From a virus, in the IMG/VR virus record IMGVR_UViG_3300025669_000137, positions 1 to 30,473 of that record: a DNA stretch of 30,473 nucleotides, one strand, 5' to 3'. Shown in pieces: positions 8,984-30,315 of this stretch. Under the pieces are notes generated by a model. That model was not told the origin of the DNA and ran no database searches. It saw only the letters and a list, made by a program, of their open reading frames with translations. Position 1 is the stretch's first letter. Every line of letters starts with the position of its first letter. Both the position numbers and the translations under genes were made by a program.

Positions 8984-11900
8984 TTATTTGCTTGATATTA
9001 ATCTTGATCCTATTGTGTCTACTTGATAATGAATACCTGTTGTTTCTAATAAAGCATCGCCAGCGTATTCATTAGCACTCGCAGCAATTCTTTCTAGCGT
9101 AAATAAAAATTGATCTCCTATATTAAAGTTAGTGCCTGTAATGGCCGTGAAGCTACAAATAATAGATTCATATTGTGTGTCGAAGTCACATTCAGCAGTT
9201 ATGGGGGTGGTCGCGTCTAGTGTAGCTCCCATCTGTGCCAAAGTATAAGTTAATTGCCACTTAACTTTGTCTGTTCCTGTTGGAGCTGTTTTTCCCTGAA
9301 AATGTACATGGAATGTAAAATCACTACCTTCCTTGTAATCATGTTGCAATTCAAAGCTACCATGCACTTTTTCTCCTACATCAAAAGCTAAAGTTGTTAT
9401 TCCTGTGTCTGTTCCGGTCTCGTCATCAAATGTGTCTATGTCCGGCTGTGAACTTGTTGGTCTAGATAATTGTGCCGATCCTAAGTTTATATCTTTCCAT
9501 ACAGCCTGAACAAGCTCAACTGTTTTTTCTGATCCACAATCAACCTTTAGGTCATCGTTTGTTACAATTTTTAAATTAGTACCATCGTCTGTTATATAGG
9601 AATTAATATCAGCAAAATATATATTTCCAGAAAAAGAAGCATCCTTCCATCTTAAATCAGAAGAACCTAGATCATATGAATCATCATCTGAAGGATTCCA
9701 GTCTAGATCGGCTGTAAAATAAAAATTAGCCAGGTCACATACAATTTCGCCTGTTGATGAGAAATCAGTTTTTCCAAATAAAAGATTGCATGTATCCGTG
9801 TCAGAATAATCAAAAATAGCAAACCTATCATATGTTCCGATGGCATAAGGTATTGGTATAACCGGTGAGGATGCCTTTCCTATGAGTAGTGGAATATAAA
9901 CATGTCCTGCTGAAATTCCTGTCAAATCGAGATCTATCTCACTGGTCTCTAAATATGTATTATTGACCCCGGTAGTTATTCTTAAATTATCATCAAATAA
10001 AAAGTAGTTTTCATCTTCCATCCACGAAAGAGAGCCTGTGTTGGACGTCCCTATAAACTGTAATGTTACATCTGAATCAGCGGTGGAATTTCTGAAATTA
10101 AAATTATTGTCAAAATAAACATCTAGGTCGCCACCATTGTCACTACCTATTTTTGTAGTATTTACATTGAATTGAATATATTGTTCAGTATTACCAAGTT
10201 TCCAATCATACCCAGTCTCATCAACAATACCATATGCATTAGTTTGGTCACCAGCCCTTAAATCCCAATCTGAGATTTGTAGACCTACGGCACCAAGTAA
10301 GTTGGCTGTTCTTGTAGCATCAACAGATTCTATTGATATCTTCTGTCCAACAATAAGCATATACAAGTTATTACAAGTCTCTGCTGGAGTTTTGTCCTCT
10401 ACACTAATGAGTTGGCCTATACTATAAAAAACAAAGTCTGATGTAGCGTCATTTATTATAGGTGCTACTATTAATTCTGCAACTAGCGGGATGTTACTGA
10501 TTGACATGTCTTCTGTTCCTGAATACGTAGCATCAACGTTTAATCCAAAATAATGAACAGCATTAATCTCTGACTGTCCTGTTGCATAATTATTAATTGT
10601 TCCTGTTCTATTAGACTTAACAATCATTGCTGCGTTAGCATATGTATTTCCTGCACCAACTGGATCTGAACTATATGTAGCTATATCATATATATTAGAA
10701 GAAACATAAAAAGAACCGTCACCTTCCCAATCAAGATAGCCAGCCGGGTTTGTGCCTTCAATATAAAAACCTTGAGGCATATAAATTAAATTATTTACCC
10801 CTGAATTTGAATAGCTTGTAAGCTGATTAAATGTTCCTGTGAGGTCTCCTGGGTCAACAACTGTGTCTATAGTAAAATTTGTAGTCGCGTTTCCTAGATA
10901 TGCTTCAGTTGCTATAAAATCTCCACCGACGTGAAGTTTGGCTGATGGGGAGCCTTCTCCTATTCCAACTGCGCCTCCTACCTTTAACATGATATTAGGG
11001 TCGCCACCGTTCCAGTCTCCTATAGCCAAATCATAATAACTTGATCCATCATATGGGAGCATTCTGCAAGTGGTCCCGCTTAGTACGTACATTTCAAGAT
11101 ATGCACCTATGCCTGAAGGATGACTTCCTGAGCCATTAGCCAACACCATTTCGGTTTGTACTATTCCTGATGCCGTTATATTTTCTACTGATGTTATATC
11201 TCCGGTTGTGGCAAAATCTCCAGTACCTATATTCATTGATCCGTCGGTAGATAGTACAACGCTATCTGTCCACTGAGTGAGCTCTGTGTGCTCTGAGAGG
11301 TTTAAATGGTAGTATTGGTCAGTTGTGCCTCCCTGCTTGCCTGAGGTATCGTTATGGGCCACTGTGGCCGTTCCTGCGACCCATGCTATCCCATTCCAGG
11401 TATATTGCTTGCTTTCATCTGTCACTATGATTGCCCATCCATTAGCAGGAGTCTGAAAAGTCCACTGGACAGCGTCCCATTCAGTCACATCATTAACGTG
11501 CCCGGCCCAGTCTCCACTTGCTGCTGGAGATTCCTCCGAACCATAGGTTAAAAAAGTAGAAGGGTCATCCTGGTTATTATAAGAAGTTTTAATTCGATCT
11601 GCCGAACGAGCTGAATCTGAAACTCTAACCTCGTCAACTGTCCCGCTAAATTGATAATTAGTTCCATCTGCTGACGACCCGAACCTTGTCGGCGTTGTTA
11701 AATTTCCATAAGAAGTTAAAGCATACTGTTTATTAAATACTCCGTTAATATAAACCTTAACAACAGACCCATCCCACGTGGCTGTCATTAAATACCAAGT
11801 GCCATAAACTGCCAAAGTTGTTGTTCTACCTGCTGCCCAGCCAATGCCTGATTGATTAGCTCCAATGGTGGCAGTTAAATAATCAGTATCATTCACACCG

Positions 11901-13777
11901 ATCCAATAGTCAGAACTTCCAACACTAGAAGCTGACGCTTTATGTAGTGCAGTTTCATAGTTGCTTCCACCAGCTTCTTTTTTAATCCAAGCAGACACAG
12001 TTAAGGCCGACGGTGTAGGAAGAAAATTATTATTTACTTTTATATAATCATTAGATCCATCAAACCCTACTGCATATCCATCTTTTCCAGTTGCTCGGTA
12101 TGTTACTCCTCCTGCTCCTATTCCATCACTGCTATTAGATGTTGAATCATAGAATGCTCCTGATTCTTCTCCTAAATGCTGAACCATTTTATAATTACTA
12201 TCCCATGTGTCGGTTACTTCTTGCTGATTACCTGATAGAGCGTTTCCATAATACATATATATTTCAGTATCTGATGATCCTGACAAATTTCTCTTAACCC
12301 ATGCCACAAGCTGTTTAGTTGTTGTGGTTTTAATATATTCTATTTCATGAGGAATTTTCGTTATACCGTCATCTGTTGTAAATAATATGTCATATCCTGA
12401 TGCCAAGCAATTGTCAAACAAAGTATTTGCTTGATCTGTTATGTCTATATAAACAGGGAAGTCGGTCTCGTCATCTTCAACCTTAGTATTGTCTATTGTA
12501 ATTTTCTGTCTATAATCCCAGTTCACACTGTACCAGTTTGATGCCGTGCCTGCGACTATATATCTATCTCCCAAGGTTGGCGCTCCAGGAGGTGTTGAAA
12601 GGTCTTTGTCTATTACAGGTGCTTGCCATGTGAATCCACTAAGCAAATCATCAACATATTTTTTCCTGGCTAAGTGATTATCCCCTGTTGGAGTAATTGC
12701 ACACGTAATAAGGTTATTGTAGGTCCAGTCTCCTTGGATAGTATAATTAGACGACGCACTTTGAATAATTGAGTTTACTTTATTGTCAGTATAAAAAAGA
12801 TTAGTTGATCCCTCTGTTATGTCATCAGTATCATCAACATTTTTAATAAACCAGTTGTTATGTTCTGCTTCGGTTGCGTGATAGTATTGAACTGCCTCTC
12901 CTCCCTGCAAACCAACTAGAGAGTTATGATCAAATGCTGAACCAATATCTGCCCACTCTGTAGTAGTTCCATTGTATGTATAAAATTTACTATCATCTAT
13001 ATTTTTTAATGCCATATTATTGGCTGCGACAGTTTCAGTCCACGCAGAACCACTCCACTCGTAGATGTTATTTTCTGTCCATCCTCCTCCGGTAACATTT
13101 GCAATATATCTATTTCCTGTAGCCTGTATTGCATCACCGACAGCGGCAAACTTTAAAATGGAATCCTGCCAGGCCAATCCTGATATCAATCCATCAACGT
13201 ATGATTTGTTTGTTGCGTCTGTCCCGGCCGTAGGTGTGGCCAATGAAGTTATTTTGTATGAGTTAGCATTTAACTCCTCGCCAAGTTTTGTTGGATATAA
13301 AGTTGTGCAGTATAAATTATCTACCCTGTCTGTAGTGTCTGATATATCTCCGGTCATCACTATGCTATTTGTTGCAAGGTTTATGTTGCCTGTTGATGTT
13401 AGAGAATCGACGGTTGTGTTTCCGAGGTCACAAGTTCCGGTTGTTATAATGTTTTCGTTATCAAAATTTACCTCTCCTCCTCCGGCCGTTATTTGTAGGT
13501 CACCGCTTGCATCAAGAAGAAGCACACCTTGCTGGTCTGCTTCATTTATAAATGTTATGGATGGGCTTGCACCTGATCCGTCATCCAGTATAATGTCACC
13601 AATTATTGTCTGAGGATTTGGTTGATTCAATTCTAAGAATATACCTGAGGCATCAAAAAATTCCAGCGCTGTTGCCCCGGAATTTACGTCAATTAACTTG
13701 TCCTCCTGACCTAAAAAAGAATCAGGGGTATCCCTAAGACCGACAAATGTATCTATCCCAGGTTGTTCGATTCGCAT
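8984..13777 (-). CDS. Giant multidomain tail fibre with DUF2341 and LamG-like lectin insert
   Basis: 1597 residues. Residues 1-190 are a fibre base with T4-fibre-like shaft repeats (TGNINLATNSIVMTGDIS). Two related modules start with YVD: copy 1 at about 193-307 (KSYVDGLISGLAWQDSI, NRYIANVTGGGW, AVQYYHATEAEHNN) and copy 2 at about 374-832 (KKYVDDLLSGFTWQAPV, DRYIVAGTAS, DQYYHLNLSEHTE). Copy 2 is interrupted at about 414-754 by a DUF2341-type domain (NWDYRQKITIDNTKVEDDET, YYGNALSG) and a concanavalin/LamG domain (YAVGFDGSNDYIKV, LTVSAWIKKEAGG, TATWDGSVVKVYINGV, SGTVDEVRVSDSARS). Later parts hold fibre repeats (SYDLGSSDLRWKDASFSGNI), and residues ~1450-1597 form a terminal beta domain. This is probably the main receptor-binding fibre, recognising a surface glycan. 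It is two bases downstream of a coiled-coil gene. Confidence 0.85.
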   Translation of the reverse strand: MRIEQPGIDTFVGLRDTPDSFLGQEDKLIDVNSGATALEFFDASGIFLELNQPNPQTIIGDIILDDGSGASPSITFINEADQQGVLLLDASGDLQITAGGGEVNFDNENIITTGTCDLGNTTVDSLTSTGNINLATNSIVMTGDISDTTDRVDNLYCTTLYPTKLGEELNANSYKITSLATPTAGTDATNKSYVDGLISGLAWQDSILKFAAVGDAIQATGNRYIANVTGGGWTENNIYEWSGSAWTETVAANNMALKNIDDSKFYTYNGTTTEWADIGSAFDHNSLVGLQGGEAVQYYHATEAEHNNWFIKNVDDTDDITEGSTNLFYTDNKVNSIIQSASSNYTIQGDWTYNNLITCAITPTGDNHLARKKYVDDLLSGFTWQAPVIDKDLSTPPGAPTLGDRYIVAGTASNWYSVNWDYRQKITIDNTKVEDDETDFPVYIDITDQANTLFDNCLASGYDILFTTDDGITKIPHEIEYIKTTTTKQLVAWVKRNLSGSSDTEIYMYYGNALSGNQQEVTDTWDSNYKMVQHLGEESGAFYDSTSNSSDGIGAGGVTYRATGKDGYAVGFDGSNDYIKVNNNFLPTPSALTVSAWIKKEAGGSNYETALHKASASSVGSSDYWIGVNDTDYLTATIGANQSGIGWAAGRTTTLAVYGTWYLMTATWDGSVVKVYINGVFNKQYALTSYGNLTTPTRFGSSADGTNYQFSGTVDEVRVSDSARSADRIKTSYNNQDDPSTFLTYGSEESPAASGDWAGHVNDVTEWDAVQWTFQTPANGWAIIVTDESKQYTWNGIAWVAGTATVAHNDTSGKQGGTTDQYYHLNLSEHTELTQWTDSVVLSTDGSMNIGTGDFATTGDITSVENITASGIVQTEMVLANGSGSHPSGIGAYLEMYVLSGTTCRMLPYDGSSYYDLAIGDWNGGDPNIMLKVGGAVGIGEGSPSAKLHVGGDFIATEAYLGNATTNFTIDTVVDPGDLTGTFNQLTSYSNSGVNNLIYMPQGFYIEGTNPAGYLDWEGDGSFYVSSNIYDIATYSSDPVGAGNTYANAAMIVKSNRTGTINNYATGQSEINAVHYFGLNVDATYSGTEDMSISNIPLVAELIVAPIINDATSDFVFYSIGQLISVEDKTPAETCNNLYMLIVGQKISIESVDATRTANLLGAVGLQISDWDLRAGDQTNAYGIVDETGYDWKLGNTEQYIQFNVNTTKIGSDNGGDLDVYFDNNFNFRNSTADSDVTLQFIGTSNTGSLSWMEDENYFLFDDNLRITTGVNNTYLETSEIDLDLTGISAGHVYIPLLIGKASSPVIPIPYAIGTYDRFAIFDYSDTDTCNLLFGKTDFSSTGEIVCDLANFYFTADLDWNPSDDDSYDLGSSDLRWKDASFSGNIYFADINSYITDDGTNLKIVTNDDLKVDCGSEKTVELVQAVWKDINLGSAQLSRPTSSQPDIDTFDDETGTDTGITTLAFDVGEKVHGSFELQHDYKEGSDFTFHVHFQGKTAPTGTDKVKWQLTYTLAQMGATLDATTPITAECDFDTQYESIICSFTAITGTNFNIGDQFLFTLERIAASANEYAGDALLETTGIHYQVDTIGSRLISSK

Positions 13778-16973: not shown

Positions 16974-17993
16974 TTAGACTCCTGTGATGCCAGTTAATTT
17001 ACCGTGACGTTTAGGGTTCTTAGTGATGAACTGTCCGCCGAAGTAGATGTGGCCAACAACGCCTGCTGCGTTAGCTGGAATAATCCAATCACTCCATGAG
17101 AATCCTAAGCCCATTGGTGCACTGTAGTCGTTTCCTTCAATCTGAGATTTGTAAGCTACTGGTTTTGCCATCTTGTATGGTAATGCATACCAATCTAGGT
17201 CTTCCTCTCTAACAGCGATCAATGCGCCGGAGGTACATTTTTCATCCATTAGAATTGGTTTACCGTTGTAGGATAGAGCTGTGAAGCCAGTTCCACCTTG
17301 TAGGCCTTTCATCAATGAAGCGCTCTTTGTGATTCGTTCTTGTGGTCGTAAAAGTTGACCATAGAAGTTGAAGATTGCTTCTGTGGTGTAGAATGCAGAT
17401 GGCTTTTGAGCACCTGTTGCTACGTTGATCCACAAAGTATCTACTTTAGCTAAGGTTAAAGTACCACCGGAGGCAGTAACAGTTCCCTGCAAAGTGTCGT
17501 ATGTTGATCGGCTTAAGCCACCAATAGTTGCGACTGCACTTCCATCATCAACCAAAGCTGCAAGACCTAGAGGGTCTTTACTGCTGTTTCCTGTACCGTC
17601 TGCATAGAAGATAGTTCCTAAGTCGTCGGCCATGTCTTCTGTATCAGATTGAATTGTGAGCTTCATTAAGTCTAGAATTTTATCATCTGTGTCAGCTACT
17701 GAAAGCTCATCACCAGGCAATGCACAAGTGATTTGATAAAATGAAGGAGTAAACTCCATGAACTGTCTGTTGTCAGTTGCTGCGACTGAAAATGTGTCGA
17801 AGCCTCTGAATGATTGACCAGTGGTATTCTTTGATACCTTAATTGGTGCTCTTAGTGTTCTTCCGCTCCACTTCTTCGCAGCACGCACTACGCGCTGGAA
17901 TAGAACATTTGATCCGAGAACAGTGTCCACAACGAAAGGTAAATAGTCTGTCTGCACTGTGGTCTGTACTCGTTGTCCGTATAATTCTGTCAT
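16974..17993 (-). CDS. Major capsid protein (HK97-like fold)
   Basis: 339 residues, placed directly after the portal and scaffold. Typical features are an N-terminal segment (LYGQRVQTTVQTDYLPFVVD), a P-domain-like helix (KILDLMKLTIQSDTEDMADD, then LGTIFYADGTG), and A-domain strands (KPSAFYTTEAIFNFYGQLLR, YNGKPILMDEKC). It ends in GHIYFGGQFITKNPKRHGKL. No long N-terminal delta domain and no maturation protease gene are visible, which agrees with the separate scaffold. It is a plausible client of the encoded GroEL/GroES, as gp23 of T4 is of its host chaperonin (known for T4, inferred here). The ATG follows CTACAAAAAA, with no Shine-Dalgarno, behind a 9-bp inverted repeat. Confidence 0.85.
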   Translation of the reverse strand: MTELYGQRVQTTVQTDYLPFVVDTVLGSNVLFQRVVRAAKKWSGRTLRAPIKVSKNTTGQSFRGFDTFSVAATDNRQFMEFTPSFYQITCALPGDELSVADTDDKILDLMKLTIQSDTEDMADDLGTIFYADGTGNSSKDPLGLAALVDDGSAVATIGGLSRSTYDTLQGTVTASGGTLTLAKVDTLWINVATGAQKPSAFYTTEAIFNFYGQLLRPQERITKSASLMKGLQGGTGFTALSYNGKPILMDEKCTSGALIAVREEDLDWYALPYKMAKPVAYKSQIEGNDYSAPMGLGFSWSDWIIPANAAGVVGHIYFGGQFITKNPKRHGKLTGITGV

Positions 17994-18942: not shown

Positions 18943-20916
18943 TTAAGCAGTTTGGTTGTTTGGTTTAGGTTTGTTAGCTGATTTAGCCGCTTCCTTAATC
19001 AATTCTGCCTCCATATCTTTTGCTTTCAAACTATCATTATATGCGGCGACTGCTTCCGGATGAAGTTGAATGCCTGCCTGCATAGCCATTTGGGCCTGTC
19101 CTTCTGGAGGTAGGTCTTTGAAACTGATTGACTTGCTTGGCGGTTTGTCTTCTACTTGGCCGGCTGATTCTGCTTGTCTTTGCATTACCTGTTTTACTCT
19201 TTCATCACTAGTCAACAACATGTCCGGAGCATTTGCCTCGAGCCATACGTTGGCTGCCATCTCTTCCGGGTTTGGATAGTCTAGAGCTTTATATAAATCT
19301 AATAGGGACATTCTGTTCTGTCCGGCCAAATCAATCGCCTGGTTGGCCATTGTTGTGCTATCTTTTGGCAACAGAGACCCTTCCTTTACACTAATTATTA
19401 CCTTTGGTTTGTTTCCCTTAAGATATCTATCATCATAAACATATAGTAATTGAACGAACCAATTATACACTCCATCGGCCAGCTGTTCTAAGTATTCACT
19501 AAAACCTCCACCGATTCTGTCTGTATCAAGCATTCTACTCTGTAGTTTTCCTCTAACCGTTTGCTCGTTGGATAATCCTGCCGAGCTTGATCCTGCTGTG
19601 CCAAAAATATCTCTCATTCTTGTCCTGGTGTCGACTAATTGGTTATAAACGTCTCCAGGCAGGGATGGAGCACTCATGCGCGCTACAGCGTCAGAAACGG
19701 CTCCTGTAGGGATTGTTACGGTTCCACCCTTCCTAAGTGCCTCAGTTACTCCCTTAGCCTGTTGCTGAGTCAATCCTGATCGTTCCATTGATACCACCAT
19801 ACCACCGTTCATGCTGTCTGCATTCTTATCTATTTGCCTTACCCTCTTGTTGACGAGGTCTTGGCTGGCTAAGTTCTGGCCTATCAAAGAAGTTTCATCG
19901 ATTGGTTGTTTTCCTAGGTTAAAAACTGACAATAATAAATATGGAAGTCTAGGCGAACGAAAATGATTGATTCCTGTGATAGTTTCTGTCTGTGGCTCTG
20001 TCTCTACTTCATTGCCTAATTCATCAAACACAGGCTCTGCTTCCATTTTTACTTCCTCATCATAATTCCAGTGAGGATTTTTCTTTTTAAAAAGTACGTT
20101 ATCTCTTCCAAGAGTCCAGCACATAAATTCACTACTCCACCACTCAATAAATTGTATTTCAGTACCGAGGGCTTCATTTCCTTTGTCATCTTGAGCCAGT
20201 TTTTTAATTGCTTCTATTGCTCCTTCTTCCCCACCTACTGATTCAAGTGTGCTGATTATTTGCTCTGCATTAAGTTTTCTATATTCTCCTATTCTATCCC
20301 CGGTGTAGCCTTCTTCGTCAACAGTTGAACCTGGGTCTAGTATCAACTTCTGTGGCCTAATTACTTTAGTTGTTGGCATGTCCTTGTTTAAGTCCCAGCC
20401 TACCTTTTCTGCTCCCAATAAATATAAAGCCCAATGTCGAGCTGTTTTTTTCATCTTTAACCTTAGCACAAGTTCATCTGCTATTTCTCCTAATTCTTTT
20501 TGTAAATTACTAGCAAATGTTAAATTTTCAGGTGTTTGCTGTTCCTTGCGTGATAATGTAACCATTGGATCAGGGTTTCTGCGGGTAACCTGTGGGAGGT
20601 ATGTCTCCAAGGATTCAAAAATGACGTTATCAACCAATGGCCTTTGACCTCCTGATTTTGGCAAGTTATATTGTTTTCCTATCCAGTATTCTTCGTTTTC
20701 TTTTGAATGTTCAAACCATTTAGAATAAACTTCTGATTCCTTCCATGCTTTCTCCCATTTTGAAGTCAACGATAAAATATCCTCATTAGACATTTCGACT
20801 TCTAATTCAGGGAATTTTTCGGACACTACACCCTCGTCTGTTTCAACATCAAGGCTCTTTCCGACAGCCTTATTGACGTTACGTCCTAAAGAATAAAATG
20901 AATCTAGTATAGTCAT
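18943..20916 (-). CDS. Portal protein
   Basis: 657 residues from the ATG at 20916; an in-frame TTG five codons upstream would overlap a possible promoter and is not preferred. Features fit a large phage portal: an N-terminal helical region (DILSLTSKWEKAWKESEVYS, KWFEHSKENEEYWIGKQYNL), the substrate-facing core (NVIFESLETYLPQVTRRNPD), wing-like domains, and the long stem/crown helices (SLIGQNLASQDLVNKRVRQI, VARMSAPSLPGDVYNQLVDT, AGSSSAGLSNEQTVRGKLQS). It ends in an acidic/Gln-rich tail (VEDKPPSKSISFKDLPPEGQ). It lies between large terminase and scaffold, the usual order. It forms the dodecameric DNA channel at the capsid vertex. Confidence 0.85.
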   Translation of the reverse strand: MTILDSFYSLGRNVNKAVGKSLDVETDEGVVSEKFPELEVEMSNEDILSLTSKWEKAWKESEVYSKWFEHSKENEEYWIGKQYNLPKSGGQRPLVDNVIFESLETYLPQVTRRNPDPMVTLSRKEQQTPENLTFASNLQKELGEIADELVLRLKMKKTARHWALYLLGAEKVGWDLNKDMPTTKVIRPQKLILDPGSTVDEEGYTGDRIGEYRKLNAEQIISTLESVGGEEGAIEAIKKLAQDDKGNEALGTEIQFIEWWSSEFMCWTLGRDNVLFKKKNPHWNYDEEVKMEAEPVFDELGNEVETEPQTETITGINHFRSPRLPYLLLSVFNLGKQPIDETSLIGQNLASQDLVNKRVRQIDKNADSMNGGMVVSMERSGLTQQQAKGVTEALRKGGTVTIPTGAVSDAVARMSAPSLPGDVYNQLVDTRTRMRDIFGTAGSSSAGLSNEQTVRGKLQSRMLDTDRIGGGFSEYLEQLADGVYNWFVQLLYVYDDRYLKGNKPKVIISVKEGSLLPKDSTTMANQAIDLAGQNRMSLLDLYKALDYPNPEEMAANVWLEANAPDMLLTSDERVKQVMQRQAESAGQVEDKPPSKSISFKDLPPEGQAQMAMQAGIQLHPEAVAAYNDSLKAKDMEAELIKEAAKSANKPKPNNQTA

Positions 20917-20922
20917 AGTTTT

Positions 20923-20951
20923 ATTATACAACTTTTTAAGTTAGTCAACAA
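20923..20951 (-). promoter_or_regulatory. Candidate sigma70-type promoter before the portal gene
   Basis: On the minus strand a perfect -10 box TATAAT (20928-20923) lies 17 bases downstream of TTGTTG (20951-20946), which matches three of six -35 positions. A short palindrome, AACTT-TTT-AAGTT, occupies 20930-20942 inside the spacer. The -10 box ends six bases before the portal ATG, so a transcript from it would be leaderless or nearly so. AT richness makes chance TATAAT matches common, hence low confidence. Confidence 0.3.
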
Positions 20952-20957
20952 CATTTT

Positions 20958-22703
20958 TTATTCACTTCTCCAGTCATCATCTCTCTCTGTCCACCATGGC
21001 TCCTCTGGAGTTGAGTCTTTTGATCCGAACAACTCGTCCGGGTTAAAGTCTACGGTATTGTCCGGGTTAACAACATAGCTATCTGCTTGCCGTATTTCGT
21101 CTGCTCCTACAATCGAGCCTGAACTTCCAAATCTTGTTAATCCAACGTACCAGTATAGTGTTGCGTGAACCCAGTCATCTCTGTTTGAGCGAAGCCATTT
21201 GTATTCAACGACTCCTAGAGTATTTTCCTCTGATATTCTATAAATATGACTCCAATGTAGCCAGTATTCATGATAGTCTGCTTTGGTTCCACGATAGAGC
21301 CTGAACCTCTTGTCTCTCCAAAAATCCACCAATAGCTGTATCATTCTGTTTCTATCAACAATTACATTTCCGCTTTCATCCTTTTCTCCCCATCGGATCA
21401 ACTGCATGGTCTTGCGGTCCCTGGCGTAGTGGCACAGGAACACTCGGCCGGGGTATTTGTCTCTTAGTTTCCTGGCTCCGATAATATCTCCTCCTTGGTC
21501 TATTACCATTATACTATTTGGAAAGACTTTTAGGAAGTATTCAAGTGTTTCGTTTGGCGCTAGGTTATTGACCTCGTCCGGGACGTAGTCTGTCATCTCT
21601 CCGTAGCCAAGTATTCCTTGCTTATTTCCGTAGACATAGCGCAGTTTGATGCCGGTGTCTACTCCGATTACTATTCTGCCTTGCATTAAATTCTTTTCAG
21701 GTGTTATGGCATTTTTGATCATGTCTTCGGTTACACTATTTCCTCCTCCTGAATATGGTAGTCCGAGCACCTTATTGTAGAAGAAGTCCATTGTCTGTTT
21801 GCCCTCTACGACTTTATTGTGTTTTTTTATGATTTCTTTTGCGCTTACCCACGGCGCCATCAATAATGAAATGTGATAACCTGAGTATTCAGCATTTTCC
21901 TTGCCCTTCCTTGGTTTCCATGTGCCAATTCTTCTGTCCCTGTTTTCAAGAACACCGTGGCACTTCTTACATTCAAATTGAGCCTTATCAATGTTAATGC
22001 TCATCTTTTTAGGGTCTTCTGTATTCCAGGTCAGCATTTGAGAGTATCCACAATGTGGGCATTTTATGAACCATTCTTTTTTGTCGCTGATCTGCCATTC
22101 AATATCAACTCCACTATTTGGAACACTTGGATGGCTGAACACGTGCGTTTGCTTGAACTTTGAATGCTGTAGCCGGGCCTGATAGTCAGCGATAACATCT
22201 TGCTTCGATGAATCCTTTTCATCATGAACCAATCTATCTGCGGTGACCATGATAGCTGCCTTCTTGCTCCACGTTCCTCTAAAATACACCTGAGACTTGC
22301 CTATGCGCTTCTGCTCGATTGTGTCCTTATCCTTTGTCAATATCTCCATTGACGGATTGTTGGATATAATACGGTTTACTTTTCCTCCTACAAAAACACC
22401 CACGTCTTGATCAGTGGGCAGTGTGTAGATGATATCCATTTTATTGGATTCAGCGTCTCGGATAGTTTTAATGATTTCAAGTGTGCTTAGGCCAATCTGA
22501 GCTGCCTTCATTACGACTAGATTCTTGCTTTGGTCGTTGTATATGTCTATCTGAAATTGATGGTTGTACCAATCTATCGGGTCGCCTTTTTCATTCTTAA
22601 TCTTATAATAGTCGACCCAGGCATCCGCGTCCATCTTAGCTAGTGTCCTTGAAGCTTCATCTGAACTAACCTTCTCAATTTTAGGTATTGCTGGTTTCTC
22701 CAT
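20958..22703 (-). CDS. terL: Terminase large subunit, GpA type
   Basis: 581 residues. The ATPase domain shows a Walker A-like KAAQIGLST at 66-74 and Walker B ending HDE at 160-162. Two CxxC pairs (CPHCG at 215-219, CKKCHG at 245-250) make the zinc-binding insert typical of lambda gpA-type large terminases. The C-terminal nuclease has candidate acidic metal ligands at D349 (VIGVDTG), D402 (VIDQGGD) and D509/D510 (RDDWVHA). It cuts and translocates DNA into the procapsid through the portal, encoded next. Its ATG lies inside the 3' end of the small zinc-finger gene (23-base overlap). The C-terminus is acidic and Trp-rich (EEPWWTERDDDWRSE), a likely portal-contact tail. Confidence 0.92.
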   Translation of the reverse strand: MEKPAIPKIEKVSSDEASRTLAKMDADAWVDYYKIKNEKGDPIDWYNHQFQIDIYNDQSKNLVVMKAAQIGLSTLEIIKTIRDAESNKMDIIYTLPTDQDVGVFVGGKVNRIISNNPSMEILTKDKDTIEQKRIGKSQVYFRGTWSKKAAIMVTADRLVHDEKDSSKQDVIADYQARLQHSKFKQTHVFSHPSVPNSGVDIEWQISDKKEWFIKCPHCGYSQMLTWNTEDPKKMSINIDKAQFECKKCHGVLENRDRRIGTWKPRKGKENAEYSGYHISLLMAPWVSAKEIIKKHNKVVEGKQTMDFFYNKVLGLPYSGGGNSVTEDMIKNAITPEKNLMQGRIVIGVDTGIKLRYVYGNKQGILGYGEMTDYVPDEVNNLAPNETLEYFLKVFPNSIMVIDQGGDIIGARKLRDKYPGRVFLCHYARDRKTMQLIRWGEKDESGNVIVDRNRMIQLLVDFWRDKRFRLYRGTKADYHEYWLHWSHIYRISEENTLGVVEYKWLRSNRDDWVHATLYWYVGLTRFGSSGSIVGADEIRQADSYVVNPDNTVDFNPDELFGSKDSTPEEPWWTERDDDWRSE

Positions 22704-24308: not shown

Positions 24309-24590
24309 TTATTTTACTCTAGCAATTCCCATGTTGTTGATAGCTTCATCTACTTTTGCCTTTTCGTTTTCTGACATACAGAAGTGAGCTGGATGTTCCG
24401 GGTCTAATAACATTGTGGCTGCTGTTTCCTTTTTTATAAAGAAACAATTTTTACCTTCTTCTTCTGTGCTTGGGTTAGGACATACTAGATACTGACCTTT
24501 GTCTTCTAGCTGAGTGTCGCAGTTAGGACACTTCTGATAAAATAGATTTTGCCATTTTCTTTTTGGTCTTGGTTTTTCAAATTCTACCAT
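24309..24590 (-). CDS. Small zinc-ribbon protein downstream of the ParB-methyltransferase
   Basis: 93 residues. YQKCPNCDTQLEDKGQYLVC, then PNPSTEEEGKNCFF is a zinc ribbon of the type CPxC...CPNxx...C. The basic N-terminus (MVEFEKPRPKRKWQ) and the helical C-terminus (SENEKAKVDEAINNMGIARV) flank it. The start overlaps the TAG of the methyltransferase by seven bases, implying coupled translation and perhaps a joint role. Zinc ribbons of this kind usually bind nucleic acid. Function is unassigned. Confidence 0.55.
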   Translation of the reverse strand: MVEFEKPRPKRKWQNLFYQKCPNCDTQLEDKGQYLVCPNPSTEEEGKNCFFIKKETAATMLLDPEHPAHFCMSENEKAKVDEAINNMGIARVK

Positions 24591-25840
24591 ACGATTTTTT
24601 CCCCGTCACGCATGACATCACGGTTACCAGTGTAGTCAACGTATCTTTGAATTATTACGTCGGCGAAGCGGGGGTCTAGCTCCATGCCTACGCATATTCT
24701 ATTGGTCTTTTCACAGGCTATCATTGTTGAACCTGAACCTAGAAAAGGGTCCATTACTATATCATCGACCTTTGAACTATTGTTGAGCGCATACATTATC
24801 AATTCAACTGGCTTTTGTGTCGGATGAACGTAGTCTCTGACTGACTCGCGCTTCATTGTCCATATGGTAGTCTTACCTTCCTTCTCGGCATCTCTTTGCT
24901 TCTTTGCCCATTTGGCAAGTTGCTCATCTGTCTTCTGAAAGTCTATGATGGTCGTGTTGGTTCTATCTCCATAGAAAATTGGAGATATTCCCTTTACGTT
25001 AGCATAGAAGAATGGTTCATGCTTCCATCTATAGTTTCCCCATCCCATTGATGCGGTAGGTTTATTCCAGATGAGTTGATTCCTTATTTCAAAACCACTT
25101 AAAGTTAATGCTTCTTCAAATGTGGCCTGAGTGCTAGTGCTATGAAAAACATAAATGCCGGCACCTTTTTTTATTACTTCTTGCCAATTAGAGAATGTAT
25201 CACTTAGAAACGACTGAAATGCTACCGACTCCATCTTGTCATTCATTATGTTGGTTGACGTGTTTTTGCCTGCTCCTTGATAATTTACATTATAAGGTGG
25301 ATCTGTAAAAACCATGTCAGCCTTTATGTCCTTGAGTATTTTCAGATATGATTCTTTTTTTGTTGAATTCCCTACGTATAGTTTATGGTTGCCGAGCTGG
25401 TATAATTCTCCCTCTTTGCTTCTAGCATTTAATGGAAGTTCTGAAACATCGTCATCCTTGTCGCTCAGGTCTACTATTAGTTTTCTGTCAAAGCCGGTAA
25501 GGTCAAGTCTTGCTATGTCGAGTTCCTTTAGTTCCTGAATAACTAATTTCATATCCCAGTCTGATTCGTTCAGCTTGTTGTCGGCCAATCTGTATGCCTT
25601 TGCGTCTTCTTCGCTTATTTTTACTTTTAGAACAGGCACCTCTCTCATGTCTAGATATTGAGCGGCCAAGTATCGTCCGTGTCCGGCTATCAGTACGTCG
25701 TTTTCATCAACAACTAATGGTTGATTGAAACCAAATGCCTGAATCGAATCTGCTATCTTATTGATTTGTTCTAGCGGATGCTTTTTGGCATTTTTTCCGT
25801 ATGGCACTATCTCTGTAATCTTTCTATTCTCTATTTTCAT
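24584..25840 (-). CDS. ParB/sulfiredoxin-like domain fused to a DNA methyltransferase
   Basis: 418 residues. Residues 1-90 are a ParB-like nuclease-fold domain (QPLVVDENDVLIAGHGRYLA, with GHGR at 53-56, then LADNKLNES). The rest is a beta-class N4-cytosine or N6-adenine methyltransferase: motif IV DPPYNVNYQG at 180-189 comes before motif I DPFLGSGST at 364-372, with HPTQKP just upstream. This fusion is well known in phages and prophages and probably masks the genome from restriction enzymes. It is coupled by ATGA to a 55-residue ORF upstream and overlaps the zinc-ribbon gene downstream. No restriction endonuclease is adjacent, so it is an orphan enzyme. Confidence 0.9.
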   Translation of the reverse strand: MKIENRKITEIVPYGKNAKKHPLEQINKIADSIQAFGFNQPLVVDENDVLIAGHGRYLAAQYLDMREVPVLKVKISEEDAKAYRLADNKLNESDWDMKLVIQELKELDIARLDLTGFDRKLIVDLSDKDDDVSELPLNARSKEGELYQLGNHKLYVGNSTKKESYLKILKDIKADMVFTDPPYNVNYQGAGKNTSTNIMNDKMESVAFQSFLSDTFSNWQEVIKKGAGIYVFHSTSTQATFEEALTLSGFEIRNQLIWNKPTASMGWGNYRWKHEPFFYANVKGISPIFYGDRTNTTIIDFQKTDEQLAKWAKKQRDAEKEGKTTIWTMKRESVRDYVHPTQKPVELIMYALNNSSKVDDIVMDPFLGSGSTMIACEKTNRICVGMELDPRFADVIIQRYVDYTGNRDVMRDGEKIVW

Positions 25841-26004
25841 TTTTTTATGATTAAGTAAATTACTTGCCTCTTGTTTCTATTTATTTCCTCGATGCTTCCT
25901 TCTTCCTTATTTATTTTACCTATAATCTCTAATGCTTTTAGGTGGTTAGCGTTGCCAAACTCCGGGTTGAAGTCTTTAACCACCACATCATAATTATAAA
26001 TCAT
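25837..26004 (-). CDS. 55-residue ORF coupled to the methyltransferase
   Basis: ATG at 26004 to TGA at 25839-25837, which overlaps the methyltransferase ATG as ATGA. The sequence begins MIYNYDVVVKDFNPEFGNAN and continues HLKALEIIGKINKEEGSIEE, ending YLIIKK. It fills the gap between groEL and the methyltransferase almost exactly, with six bases between the groEL stop and its start. It has a soluble alpha/beta look and no known motif. The overlap type and gap-filling fit support a real gene; a function cannot be assigned. Confidence 0.55.
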   Translation of the reverse strand: MIYNYDVVVKDFNPEFGNANHLKALEIIGKINKEEGSIEEINRNKRQVIYLIIKK

Positions 26005-26010
26005 ACTATT

Positions 26011-27540
26011 TTATTCTTGTCTAATCTGTTGAGGATTTTCTACCAATAATCCAGTTACCGTTACCAACAATGATGCGATAGAAACTGCACTCTCAATTTG
26101 AGCGATCAGGACGTCTACTGGGTCCATAACACCAATATCATGCCAGTAGCCAATCTCTCCTGTAACTACATTGATTGCTTCTTCTTCCATTAATCCTCTG
26201 TGATTCTTCAATCCAACATTATATTTTAATTGTTCGAATGGTACTTTTAGAGCATCATTTAATAATTTACTTGAAGTCTCAATGTTTAGCAGGGCTATTC
26301 CTCCGCCGGCTATTATTCCGCCTTGGAATGCTGACCTAGTTGCATTGACGGCATCCTCTACTTTATATCTCAATGCGTTGGCTTCATTCTCTGTGGCTGC
26401 TCCGACTTTAATGACTCCTACTTTATTACTAAACTTAGCAATTCTTTTTTCTATTAGGTCAATCGTTCCTTTATGTGTTTCGAATGATTTAGATTTTTTC
26501 AAATCTTCAATCGCTTTTGATATTTCCTTTTCATCTCCTTTTGGCCCGACGATTGTTGACTCTGTTCTCTTGGCAATGAACCTGTCTGCTCGGCCAAGGT
26601 CTTCTATTTCAGCATCTTCAATCTTATTTCCTTTGGTGTCACTAAAAACTTTTCCACCACACATGATCGCCATATCTTCTAGGAGGTTTGTTTTATTGTC
26701 TCCGGATGGTGCATTAACTGCTACAGCATTAAATTTACCCTGCATTTTATTAACTACTAATGTTGCTAAGGCTGTCTGCTCTATGTTTTCTGCAACAATT
26801 ACAAGGTTAGTTATTTTTTTAGCAAGAAGTTTTTCCATTACACCTATTACGTCTTTTGCTTCTGTCAATCTGTAGTCAGTAAATAGAATGTAAGGCTTCT
26901 CAATCAGGGCTTCCATTCGGTCCGGGTTGGTTACCATATAAGGGCTAATGTATCCACGGTTAATGCTGATTCCTTCTTTTAGCTCTACGCTTGTTTCCAT
27001 TGTGTCTGATCTATCGATTGTTAGTATCCCATCCTTTCCGAGTTCATTCCATGCATCTGCAATCTTTTCTGAAATGATTTCATCATCGAAGCTTATTCTA
27101 GACACCTTTAATAATTCATCATGAGTTTTGACTGGTTTGGCACGACATATTAATTGCTTTTTAGCTTCTATAAATCCCTGTTTGAGTTCTTTTTCGATTT
27201 CTCTTCCATTACGTTTTTTTGCTTTAAGTTTTGCAACTTGTTTCATAATGGCTTGAACAATTATCAAAGCACCGGTAGTTCCGTCTCCAACTCTGTCATT
27301 TGTTTTTATTGCTGTTTCCCGGACTAGCTTCATTATTGCATTCTCGTTTGAGTCTGCAAGTTCTAAATCTCTTGCAATTTGCACTCCGTCATCAACTACC
27401 ATGGCGTGAGTTACTTTGCTGATTATAACTTTATTACTTGCCGGGCCGTACGTTGGTTTAATAAAGTCAACTGTTTTGTCTACGGCCTTACAAATTAAAT
27501 TGAAAGTTTCTTTTTGAGTTACTTTTACTCTTGATTTCAT
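26011..27540 (-). CDS. groEL: Phage-encoded chaperonin GroEL
   Basis: 509 residues, about 40 shorter than E. coli GroEL. ATP-site hallmarks are intact: TYGP at 30-33, DDG at 50-52 (equivalent of D52), GDGTTGA at 85-91 (D87 equivalent D86; the usual third Thr is Gly), and VEDAVNATRSAF with D396 (D398 equivalent), then IIAGGGIALL. The apical peptide-binding face is recognisable (RGYISPYM, ALATLVVN), but the usual APGFGDRRK loop reads APSGDNKTN and one residue is missing. The C-terminus ends ...VENPQQIRQE without the Gly-Gly-Met tail. It should form a GroEL-type ring folding phage proteins with the co-chaperonin encoded 600 bases upstream. Its ATG overlaps the stop of the CxxC gene (ATGA). Family call certain; activity inferred. 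Confidence 0.96.
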   Translation of the reverse strand: MKSRVKVTQKETFNLICKAVDKTVDFIKPTYGPASNKVIISKVTHAMVVDDGVQIARDLELADSNENAIMKLVRETAIKTNDRVGDGTTGALIIVQAIMKQVAKLKAKKRNGREIEKELKQGFIEAKKQLICRAKPVKTHDELLKVSRISFDDEIISEKIADAWNELGKDGILTIDRSDTMETSVELKEGISINRGYISPYMVTNPDRMEALIEKPYILFTDYRLTEAKDVIGVMEKLLAKKITNLVIVAENIEQTALATLVVNKMQGKFNAVAVNAPSGDNKTNLLEDMAIMCGGKVFSDTKGNKIEDAEIEDLGRADRFIAKRTESTIVGPKGDEKEISKAIEDLKKSKSFETHKGTIDLIEKRIAKFSNKVGVIKVGAATENEANALRYKVEDAVNATRSAFQGGIIAGGGIALLNIETSSKLLNDALKVPFEQLKYNVGLKNHRGLMEEEAINVVTGEIGYWHDIGVMDPVDVLIAQIESAVSIASLLVTVTGLLVENPQQIRQE

Positions 27541-27812
27541 AGGTTTATTATGGTTTTATTTGGATGATAAAGTTTCATGAATACTCCCTTTGTTGATCCA
27601 AAGTCTTGAGCATATTGACGGACGTGGGCTTTTAGATATTCAGTATTTTCAATTTTTCCTTTGTAACCCTTATTCCACCTCTTTGTAATGCCACAGATTT
27701 TGCACTTCTCAACAGTCTGCTGTGGAGTTTCTCCTAGCTTAATAAAGTCATGTGGCTGCCCGAATCGACAGCCACTTAACCTTGTCCCGTATCTGATCGG
27801 TGAGCTTTTCAT
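27537..27812 (-). CDS. Small CxxC protein immediately upstream of groEL
   Basis: 91 residues. CRFGQPHDFIKLGE and EKCKICGITKRWNKGYKGK give a C..H...CxxCG site, the same layout as the 70-residue protein before the large terminase. The remainder (NTEYLKAHVRQYAQDFGSTK) is basic and helical. The TGA overlaps the groEL ATG, so translation of the chaperonin is probably coupled to it. It could be a regulator or a partner in the chaperonin cassette; no function is known. Confidence 0.55.
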   Translation of the reverse strand: MKSSPIRYGTRLSGCRFGQPHDFIKLGETPQQTVEKCKICGITKRWNKGYKGKIENTEYLKAHVRQYAQDFGSTKGVFMKLYHPNKTIINL

Positions 27813-27817
27813 TTTAA

Positions 27818-28141
27818 TTATTCTTTTGTTACTTCTTTTTCTGTGTTAGCTTCTCCTTTTCCGGCTTCGTCTTGCACAGTTTCAGCTTCAACTTTTTCAT
27901 CTTCGACACCCTCTTCGGCTTCTTCAGGAGCGTCATCAGATGTTGGTTCATTTACTTCTTCTTCAGGAGTTTCTTCTGTTTCTTCCTCTACTTTTTCATC
28001 TGCAATTTTTTCATCTTCAATAATTTCGTCTTTTAAAGTTTCCTCTAAGACTTCCGGTTGCTTTGTTTTAGCTCCGCACCGTGAGCAAGTTTCTTCGCCA
28101 GCGTTCATTACGTGGCCATCAGTGCAAATTACTTCTGTCAT
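27818..28141 (-). CDS. Acidic protein with N-terminal zinc motif, between groES and groEL
   Basis: 107 residues. The first 25 residues (ICTDGHVMNAGEETCSRCGA) form a CxxxH...CxxC zinc motif like a small zinc ribbon. The remaining ~80 residues are overwhelmingly Glu, Asp and Lys, with Val, Thr and Ala (TEETPEEEVNEPTSDDAPEE), and are expected to be disordered. It lies five bases before the CxxC gene and ten after groES. An anionic tail on a zinc knob might act as an anti-aggregation factor, a DNA mimic or a chaperonin-associated factor. These are guesses; no family is recognised. Confidence 0.5.
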   Translation of the reverse strand: MTEVICTDGHVMNAGEETCSRCGAKTKQPEVLEETLKDEIIEDEKIADEKVEEETEETPEEEVNEPTSDDAPEEAEEGVEDEKVEAETVQDEAGKGEANTEKEVTKE

Positions 28142-28151
28142 TTTTTTATGT

Positions 28152-28445
28152 TTAGTTTTTTAGAAAGGCAATGACATCTTCATCTAAAAGCAATTTATAC
28201 TCAACTTCTTTTGAGTATTCCCGGCGTTTTATTGTTTCGCCTGCAAATGCTCCATAGATTATTTTGTCATCAACTTTTATGTCTGTTACTTTACTGCCAA
28301 CAGACTGAACAGTTCCAACGGATTTTTGTTCTTGCTCATCTGTTGATGGAAGAACTAAACCGCTCTCTAATTCGTGAGATTCTTTTTCTACTGGTTTCAC
28401 GAGCAACCAGTTTCCTCTTGGTTCGATTGTTTCTTGATTGATCAT
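28152..28445 (-). CDS. groES: Phage-encoded co-chaperonin GroES
   Basis: 97 residues, the normal length of GroES. The N-terminal strand IEPRGNWLLVKPVEKE matches the GroES barrel start. The mobile loop carries SGLVLPS with L30-V31-L32 at the place of the conserved IVL tripeptide that docks on the GroEL apical domain. Then come SVGTVQSVGS and KVDDKIIYGAFAGETIK, the usual GxVxxVG and VGDxVxF regions. The roof hairpin seen in E. coli (around NGRILENG) is shortened. It ends in DEDVIAFLKN, like the normal ESDILAIVE. It caps the ring encoded at 26011-27540. With groEL this makes a complete chaperonin system. Confidence 0.93.
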   Translation of the reverse strand: MINQETIEPRGNWLLVKPVEKESHELESGLVLPSTDEQEQKSVGTVQSVGSKVTDIKVDDKIIYGAFAGETIKRREYSKEVEYKLLLDEDVIAFLKN

Positions 28446-28446
28446 A

Positions 28447-28692
28447 TTACATTAATTCATCGATTGGAGTATCTCTACCCACTTCCCTATTTTTTTTAAT
28501 TATCTCGTTCCGGGCTATTGTTGCGTCATCATCAGGAATATATATTTTTCCCTGTGGTCTTGGCCCGGCATTAACAATTTTTGCTTCAATCTTTTTTGAT
28601 TGTATCTCTATCTGTGATCTAAAAAATGTTAATGTTGTCACGGTTACGATCGCAATTAAAAGCCCGACTATAATTCCTAACACAAAATACAT
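28447..28692 (-). CDS. Small single-span membrane protein
   Basis: 81 residues. A strong hydrophobic segment occupies about 2-25 (YFVLGIIVGLLIAIVTVTTL). A basic/amphipathic region follows (RSQIEIQSKKIEAKIVN), then a polar C-terminus (KIYIPDDDATIARNEIIKKN). There is no cysteine lipobox. It is the gene before groES, with one base between the two reading frames. It could be a membrane anchor or lysis-related protein, but no holin family is recognised. Confidence 0.55.
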   Translation of the reverse strand: MYFVLGIIVGLLIAIVTVTTLTFFRSQIEIQSKKIEAKIVNAGPRPQGKIYIPDDDATIARNEIIKKNREVGRDTPIDELM

Positions 28693-28693
28693 A

Positions 28694-28978
28694 TTAGGCT
28701 TCTGGGTTAGTTATTTTCTCTTCCGGCTTTGTTTGCTGTTTCAATTGTTCTTCTCTTCCTCTAACGCTGACAATTACTGGGTCAGCTCCTAATGTGCCAC
28801 CTTTTAGAATTTTTGGCATTGCTCCTAGGCCTAATTCATATTTGGCTAGCAATGGTCCAATCTCTTCATTGAATCCTTTTAGTCTCTCTTGTAGGTCAGC
28901 TTCGTCTGGACCTTTTTTTTCTTCAGTTGGTGCTCCGGCTTGTAGTGGACCATCAACTTTTTTTTCGTCTTCAGTCAT
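28694..28978 (-). CDS. Small acidic protein of unknown function
   Basis: 94 residues. Charged, Pro/Lys/Glu-rich ends (TEDEKKVDGPLQAGAPTEEK and KQQTKPEEKITNPEA) flank a compact core (LLAKYELGLGAMPKILKGGT, then LGADPVIVSVR). The core pattern, a short helix and two strands, resembles small phage proteins with an LLxKYxLxLxAxP motif, but no function is attached to them. It is one base upstream of the membrane-protein gene and probably in the same transcript as the chaperonin cassette. Confidence 0.5.
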   Translation of the reverse strand: MTEDEKKVDGPLQAGAPTEEKKGPDEADLQERLKGFNEEIGPLLAKYELGLGAMPKILKGGTLGADPVIVSVRGREEQLKQQTKPEEKITNPEA

Positions 28979-29001: not shown

Positions 29002-30315
29002 TTATTTTTTAGCCCAGCGTTTTTCGGCACCACGTTTCCCAATTGTAGACATGTATTTTCGTCCATGCTTCTTGAGAGTAGATTTTCCTCCGTGACTTCC
29101 AACAAGAGCATATGCTCTACGCTCTTCTTCTGTCAGCTTCTTCTGTTTAGATTGACTTAGACGTGCCTTAATTATGTCTATATATTCCTTTTCTCGTTCT
29201 ATAAGTATGAAGTCCCGCCCTGTATTCTGACACGCCACTCCTGTTGTGCCACTTCCAGCAAATGGGTCTAGGACTATTCCACCAGTCGGGGTCTTAGTTA
29301 GGGTACAAAGGTATTCCATTAACTTTAAAGGCTTAATAGTTGGATGGTTATTCTTTCTTGGTGGATTTAATGGTTTACCATTTTCATCACGCTTTACCAT
29401 TATATCAAAACTACCACCTCGTCTATCATCATAGTACATCTGTTTATCCTTTAACTCCTCACACCCAGCATTTCGTTCTGCCTTTGAGGCTTTGGCACAG
29501 TAGAAGAATCTTGAAGCTCCACCTTTGTCATCATACATATTGACCTTTCCAAAATCTATTTCTTTGTAATCATTATCAATAAAATTATTTTTATATTTTG
29601 TATTTCTTAAATTAGGGCGATTAAAACCTTTACTCTCCCCACTCTGTTCATCTAGCATTTTACCTGCTTCTTCATCTAGTATTATATTAGCTGGGAATCT
29701 GCCTTGAGGTTGTTTATATTCTCCATTACCCTGTGGAATTGAAAAACTTGTTGCTTCTCTTTTATCTGACTTTTTAGAAAACTCACCACCATTTAGATTA
29801 TCATCAGTTGAGATACGTCCACCATCTATATTTAAGCCAGCAACTCCCCACTTGAGGGCGTTATTAGCATACGTTCCTTCTGGTTTTTTTTGAGCTAATA
29901 TCCAATGTTCAGCGGCAGGTTTTAAGGCAGTTCCGTATCCAACCCATTCTTTTTTGTCTGTAGACTTACCTATGTTATGAGATTTTGGAAATCCTGAACC
30001 GAATATGTGCATTATAATATCCTTTATTTGAAAACCAGCGTTCTCAATAGCAGTAGCAGTCCAGTGAGAAGTTCTAGGAATAGCCCAGACTAAAGCGGTT
30101 GCTCCTGGCTTAAGTACACGATTACATTCTTTCAATACACTTGTCAGCCATTCAATCCATTCATCTCTACCACCCTTATCATCATCCCAGGATTTTCCCA
30201 TAAAAGAAATTCCAGCTGGGGGGTCAGTTATTAACGTATCTATTGATTTACTTGGTATTTTCTTTAACCAATCAAGACATTCTCCTTGAATTACTTTGTT
30301 TTTTAGGTCTTTCAT
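29002..30315 (-). CDS. DNA methyltransferase with DPPA motif and KGG-like C-terminal tail
   Basis: 437 residues. Motif IV reads DPPAGISFMGKSWD at 31-44, where the fourth residue is usually Tyr, Phe or Trp. Motif I DPFAGSGTTG is at 350-359 with the adjacent HPTIKPLKLM. The order IV before I marks the beta class (N4-cytosine or N6-adenine). A long middle region (about 110-320) probably holds the target recognition part. The last ~33 residues (GSHGGKSTLKKHGRKYMS, then TIGKRGAEKRWAKK) resemble a basic KGG-type repeat. It is the second orphan methyltransferase of the window. DPPA is also seen in some phage enzymes as I recall, so it need not mean inactivity. Confidence 0.85.
   Translation of the reverse strand: MKDLKNKVIQGECLDWLKKIPSKSIDTLITDPPAGISFMGKSWDDDKGGRDEWIEWLTSVLKECNRVLKPGATALVWAIPRTSHWTATAIENAGFQIKDIIMHIFGSGFPKSHNIGKSTDKKEWVGYGTALKPAAEHWILAQKKPEGTYANNALKWGVAGLNIDGGRISTDDNLNGGEFSKKSDKREATSFSIPQGNGEYKQPQGRFPANIILDEEAGKMLDEQSGESKGFNRPNLRNTKYKNNFIDNDYKEIDFGKVNMYDDKGGASRFFYCAKASKAERNAGCEELKDKQMYYDDRRGGSFDIMVKRDENGKPLNPPRKNNHPTIKPLKLMEYLCTLTKTPTGGIVLDPFAGSGTTGVACQNTGRDFILIEREKEYIDIIKARLSQSKQKKLTEEERRAYALVGSHGGKSTLKKHGRKYMSTIGKRGAEKRWAKK

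Follow-up and report, generated by a model that had tools for sequence, protein, structure and literature searches.

A three-gene group I chaperonin cassette in a lineage of compact tailed phages, probably of Patescibacteria

Phage-encoded chaperonins and the locus in the window

Some phages are known to encode both GroES and GroEL (PMC7185714), and in some isolate phages the two genes are adjacent or nearly so. Cellulophaga phage phi40:1 (72.5 kb), Flavobacterium phages immuto (160 kb) and elemo (60 kb) and Bacteroides phage DAC (179 kb) all carry the two subunits together, in genomes that are larger, and in hosts that are other, than those of the lineage described here; their GroELs are 26–34% identical to the one studied here and lie on other branches of the tree. 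In phi40:1 a gene for a 90-residue protein (gp006) lies between groES and groEL, in the position taken in our locus by the gene for a small CxxC protein, but comparison of the two proteins shows no homology. Group I chaperonins of the virioplankton (Marine et al. 2017, as presented in the citing papers PMC7185714 and PMC9611531) also comprise GroEL, in some cases with GroES, as here; according to the same citing papers gene order in these viruses is linked to GroEL phylogeny, and the phages concerned are quoted as likely having genomes of more than 70 kb (PMC9611531). GroEL homologues are likewise encoded by phages EL, OBP and AR9. Their chaperonins reportedly act without a co-chaperonin, whereas the phage studied here and its relatives have an adjacent groES; the EL protein is 22% identical to E. 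coli GroEL, and that of AR9 23% identical to ours. The small genome of Caudoviricetes MW202566 (Manatee Spring) has a gene annotated 'groeL' with a short gene upstream of it, near the terminase and portal genes. Its GroEL is 30.7% identical to ours and has a long branch that joins the Patescibacteria GroELs in the tree, and the product of the upstream gene shows only a weak match to GroES and none to the CxxC protein.

The sequence analysed here, hereafter the window, is an IMG/VR virus record of 30,473 bases. All four open reading frames to which the first-pass annotation had drawn attention are present on its minus strand (Table 1), and the products of the two that it had read as groES and groEL both match group I chaperonin families. 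It was also right to place the pair near packaging genes, as groEL lies about 3.3 kb from the terminase gene, and to couple the CxxC gene to groEL, the stop codon of the former overlapping the start of the latter as ATGA. Its view that a full pair beside packaging genes is uncommon in phages is weakened: since GroES/GroEL pairs are already known from phi40:1, immuto and elemo, the pair as such is not new. What is new is a chaperonin cassette of three genes that is found across a lineage of phages of about 40 kb and in which an orphan zinc protein accompanies a lid that has no roof; a literature search, which covered Marine et al. 2017 through the papers that cite it, found no description of this three-gene cassette.

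As terminase, capsid and tail genes lie downstream of the cassette, the window derives from a tailed phage. No clear Shine-Dalgarno sequence was found upstream of the gene starts in the cassette region (25840–28978), where the sequences are AT-rich. Two DNA methyltransferase genes lie on either side of the cassette, at 24584–25840 (with a ParB-like N-terminal domain) and at 29002–30315. Elsewhere, a 1597-residue product of the window (8984–13777) contains a Laminin_G_3 domain of the concanavalin A-like type and is probably an adhesin or tail fibre.

Table 1. Cassette genes, their upstream neighbours and marker genes in the window
Feature	Coordinates	Strand	Evidence
groEL, group I chaperonin, 509 aa	26011..27540	-	Pfam, PHROGs, PDB, AlphaFold2 model
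CxxC protein, 91 aa, basic zinc-ribbon-like orphan	27537..27812	-	Synteny, invariant residues, low dN/dS
Acidic Cys-motif protein, 107 aa, accessory	27818..28141	-	Found in L002, weakly in L023
groES, co-chaperonin, 97 aa, mobile loop, no roof hairpin	28152..28445	-	Pfam Cpn10
p81, short, N-terminal hydrophobic stretch, upstream of groES	28447..28692	-	Profile matches, alignment
p94, upstream of p81	28694..28978	-	Profile matches, alignment
Terminase large subunit (TerL), lineage marker	20958..22703	-	phrog_675, 7.3e-95
Major capsid protein (MCP), 339 aa, proposed main client	16974..17993	-	phrog_9953, 2.5e-44

GroEL and GroES as a proposed ring and lid

GroEL is recovered by the Pfam Cpn60_TCP1 model (E-value 1.7e-34, with the match spanning residues 25–498), by phrog_5725, 'chaperonin groEL' (3.5e-101), and by chaperonin sequences of the PDB (down to 2.1e-88). 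Its AlphaFold2 model (pLDDT 85) matches a solved bacterial GroEL with an E-value of 1.2e-46 and a TM-score of about 0.8; together, the Pfam match and the model indicate the three-domain Cpn60 fold. The ATP-site aspartates D51, D86 and D396, described as intact by the first-pass annotation, are indeed so: they correspond to D52, D87 and D398 of E. coli and are conserved in 47, 47 and 45 of 47 relatives, respectively. The wider set of ATP-site positions (D52, G86–T90 forming GDGTT, D398 and D495 in E. coli numbering) is complete in the window protein, and the apical positions that bind GroES and substrate (Y199, S201, Y203, L259, T261, V263, V264 and N265) show for the most part identity or conservative substitution, with the residues of the ATP site and apical groove conserved in 45–47 of the 47 relatives.

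GroES matches Pfam Cpn10 with an E-value of 4.3e-12, its score of 46.3 bits exceeding the curated threshold of 21.1. The mobile loop that had been recognized by its LVL residues reads SGLVLP, the glycine (G23) being present in 39/39 relatives and followed in each of them by I, L or V; in the alignment the loop is about three residues longer than that of E. coli. None of the 39 family members compared has the roof hairpin (E. coli positions 50–55), and 37 of them have A or S in place of Y71; most Patescibacteria GroES proteins retain the roof.

Several departures from the E. coli pattern had been noted as oddities of this one pair. All of them are real, but they prove to be traits of the lineage, as is the loss of the roof. 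In the GDGTTGA motif T91 of E. coli is replaced by G, and G or S occurs at this position in 45/47 relatives; the apical loop, APSGDNKTN in place of APGFGDRRK, is rewritten across the family, and the GGM tail is missing family-wide. The sampled Patescibacteria GroELs retain the APGFG loop, and most of them also the Gly/Met-rich tail.

We propose that GroEL and GroES would form an ATP-driven ring and lid, the pairing of two rings being putative, as the equatorial segment around E. coli 426–440 is shortened and that at 461–464 rewritten or shortened, with changed inter-ring contacts. The same changes lend something to the alternative that this GroEL resembles those of EL, OBP and AR9 in functioning as one ring or with no GroES, but we consider this quite unlikely, given that the groES gene is retained beside groEL in the lineage and that the apical residues that bind the mobile loop are conserved. 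In the preferred arrangement of ring and lid the absence of the roof may open the dome, as in gp31 of phage T4, a co-chaperonin that folds the T4 capsid protein and likewise lacks roof loops, a lack that is believed to help it with this larger protein (PMC6318259). The two systems differ in that gp31 uses the GroEL of the host, whereas the window phage encodes its own, and in that the mobile loop is extended by six residues in gp31 as against about three here.

A cassette shared across the lineage, and its probable hosts

Relatives were gathered by scans of IMG/VR with GroEL, the CxxC protein and TerL, which yielded dozens of contigs. The order groES–CxxC–groEL is invariant in the 41 distinct loci that have all three genes, and the genes often overlap or nearly do so; groEL follows downstream in every one of the 37 contigs that the CxxC protein alone retrieved. 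Among contigs of the TerL lineage with at least 6 kb of upstream sequence, groEL and the CxxC gene are present in 24/24 and groES in 23/24, with 0.8–6.7 kb between the end of groEL and TerL in contigs of this lineage. As every one of these 24 contigs has groEL, the cassette is a core element of the lineage and not occasional cargo. Outside this pattern stand L021 and L022, which have a more distant GroEL and neither the CxxC gene nor an adjacent groES (in L022 GroES lies about 12 kb from GroEL), and L025 and L026, which have GroES–GroEL without the CxxC gene. Further upstream, p81 is matched in nearly all and p94 in most loci with enough sequence, and counterparts of both are present even in the divergent L025.

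The cassette also receives insertions. HNH endonuclease-like genes lie inside it in four relatives (L058 8240–8647, L073 3581–4096, L075 5330–5881 and L077 399–917), and a recurring gene for a protein of about 65–70 residues, ending in ...LRxFVxFLI...YN, lies between the CxxC gene and groEL in some relatives (L010 1944–2153, L012 7698–7904, L048 7128–7325 and L073 4101–4310). The acidic zinc-motif protein of the window has the composition first ascribed to it (37% Asp/Glu, pI 4.05), but its proposed role as a chaperonin partner is not supported: homologues were found only in L002, a nearly identical contig, and, as a weak match, in L023, and the gene is missing from most relatives. Loosely similar small, charged proteins with Cys and His residues are encoded in the same gap in L018 and L079.

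Three relatives, of 40,359, 40,964 and 42,488 bases, have exact direct repeats of 121, 123 and 52 bases, respectively, at their ends, as complete genomes should, and hence look complete; the last of these is L022, the outlier that lacks the CxxC gene. These complete-looking relatives of 40–42 kb fall below the '>70 kb' rule in the form in which it is quoted from Marine et al. 2017 (PMC9611531), and the circular, 38,956-base MW202566 with its 'groeL' is another exception to it.

That a groESL pair in a viral contig might be host DNA joined by contamination or misassembly is a default worry, as groESL is a common bacterial operon from which chimaeras could arise. We regard this as scarcely credible here, because dozens of independent contigs show the same cassette next to phage genes, with exact repeats at the ends of three of these contigs, and because the GroELs are 45–68% identical inside the clade as against about 36% for the best match outside it. 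A maximum likelihood tree agrees: the phage GroELs lie on one side of a branch with support of 93/94 when L025 is included and 100/100 when it is left out, forming a clade whose long branch separates it from the GroELs of 22 Patescibacteria and of other bacteria, with the GroELs of Bacteroidota phages placed elsewhere. The phylogenetic check suggested by the first-pass annotation thus speaks against recent host contamination, the phage clade being separate from the sampled bacterial GroELs.

A profile of the phage GroELs run against about 85,000 cellular genomes (one per species) gave only four matches, all of them in metagenome-assembled genomes (MAGs) of Patescibacteria, which suggests that the phages probably infect members of this group (CPR). 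In a search within Patescibacteria, TerL relatives of 33–37% identity were found inside contigs, two of them of 0.8 and 1.1 Mb; the best-ranked isolate phages are more distant, with 24–25%. Three of the four MAG matches lie on free phage contigs, for which mis-binning is possible, and small-cell filtrates, from which many such MAGs derive, enrich both phages and CPR. The fourth, a WWE3 scaffold (L085 9248–9721), has host-like genes and a phage CxxC–groEL region joined across a run of N, and the join may be due to genuine insertion or to an artefact of scaffolding. Comparison of the window DNA with 362 Patescibacteria genomes gave mostly groEL homology or chance matches and no convincing CRISPR spacers, and a search of Patescibacteria chromosomes with the capsid protein gave one weak match (2.9e-4). 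Prophages with a related terminase (L243 4314–4817 and L244 14623–15078, in the long Patescibacteria contigs G048:C1 and G209:C1) are without the chaperonin cassette; both adjoin fragments resembling a ComM/YifB-type Mg-chelatase gene, possibly a shared insertion site.

The notion that the host lacks GroEL and the phage supplies one is rejected: all four matching MAGs have a chromosomal GroEL of their own, and GroEL is present in 53/59 sampled Patescibacteria, as a rule in a single copy. As the hosts have their own GroEL, any need of the phage for the chaperonin is putative.

The CxxC protein as a candidate part, and the capsid protein as a candidate client, of a proposed folding machine

The CxxC protein has 14 invariant positions among 17 diverse members, including C15, H21, C37 and C40, which likely form a zinc site, and a YLxxHxRxxxQxxGxT stretch. 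All members tested are basic (pI 9.8–11.0), and the model (pLDDT 81) has a three-stranded zinc-ribbon-like head plus helices. Values of dN/dS are mostly 0.08–0.16 where dS is informative, indicating purifying selection. No significant match was found in the PDB, viral models, Pfam, PHROGs or 50,697 phage records, the best scores being 0.0044 (Pfam), 0.0066 (PHROGs) and 0.35 (PDB sequences), and a Foldseek search with the model returned nothing below 0.001. Weak matches to Viral_Hsp90 (0.0044) and to a Lar-like protein (0.14) were judged to be chance, and assignment to a known zinc-ribbon or any other family or fold was rejected, as no profile or fold match was significant. The protein is also essentially absent from Patescibacteria chromosomes: matches were found in three of 380 genomes, two of them phage contigs and one a weak match with internal stops.

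As its gene lies between groES and groEL in all 41 of the loci with the full set, the CxxC protein could belong to the proposed machine as its third part. Pairwise divergences, with that of TerL removed, correlate for GroES and the CxxC protein (partial r = 0.52), for GroEL and GroES (0.44) and for GroEL and the CxxC protein (0.30), and less so for p81 with GroES or GroEL (0.18–0.19). This tracking beyond TerL is suggestive; short proteins give noisy distances, linked genes can recombine jointly, and correlated divergence can arise from linkage. From fixed position, selection and correlated divergence, the protein does appear to be the candidate chaperonin partner that it had been taken for, and is likely the third component of the cassette, with a function that would be that of an adaptor or regulator, for instance, working with the chaperonin. 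The chances of this last step, the weakest in our explanation, are at best about even. A more specific version, in which the protein is a dedicated basic zinc-ribbon adaptor that binds GroEL or GroES and either brings the capsid protein to the chaperonin or links folding with ribosomes or nucleic acid, is rather unlikely.

A serious rival, to which we give a somewhat less than even chance, is that the CxxC protein is unrelated to folding and is a small nucleic-acid-binding regulator, which would act in late transcription, translation or packaging and owe its place in the operon to historical linkage. Its strongly basic character (pI about 10), its zinc-ribbon-like head and sub-threshold similarities to zinc fingers would suit such a protein, and p94 and p81 are likewise syntenic without an obvious role in folding; however, in the contigs examined it is always accompanied by GroEL, even where other genes are inserted around it, and its divergence tracks that of GroES and GroEL more than that of p81 does. 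It is most simply seen as a partner of the chaperonin machine.

By far the most conserved of the proteins compared is the MCP, with a median identity of 81% across relatives as against 51% for TerL, 53% for GroEL and 56% for a 662-residue protein (18943–20931); it is 77–93% identical across contigs in which TerL is 44–76% and GroEL 47–66% identical. High conservation, a length of 339 residues, small enough for a GroEL cage, and the gp31-like opening of the lid would make it the best candidate client, although its conservation may reflect capsid geometry alone, or have other causes. The chaperonin could also be a general helper that promotes the folding of many phage and host proteins during infection, or stand in for a host GroEL that is in short supply in ultra-small cells, with no special tie to the MCP. 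The generic residues of the apical groove and the usual single GroEL copy of the sampled Patescibacteria are consistent with this, but the roofless lid and the lineage-wide retention of the cassette beside structural genes indicate that the phage needs it for something specific, and we hold the general-helper reading to be improbable on balance.

The ATP-site signature, the apical groove, the roofless GroES with its mobile loop, the gene order and the purifying selection are all apparent at the level of sequence. The explanation that we favour, and regard as somewhat better than an even prospect overall, is that a compact tailed-phage lineage, probably of Patescibacteria, has a group I chaperonin of its own as a core operon of groES, a zinc-ribbon-like protein and groEL. 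Ring and lid would be dedicated to folding phage structural proteins, above all the conserved MCP, independently of host GroEL/ES, with the CxxC protein as helper. This explanation and its rivals overlap.

Phage GroEL/ES is usually regarded as the cargo of large phages; here the pair forms part of the core of a compact lineage, its putative partner protein keeps a strict place in the cassette, and the probable hosts of the phages are ultra-small bacteria that are hard to culture. Two questions are thereby made testable: why a phage of about 40 kb spends about 2.4 kb on a chaperonin although the host already possesses one, and whether the operon of a group I chaperonin can also encode an accessory factor for it. 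If the proposal is true, the CxxC protein would be such a factor in the roughly 40 kb phages of Patescibacteria.
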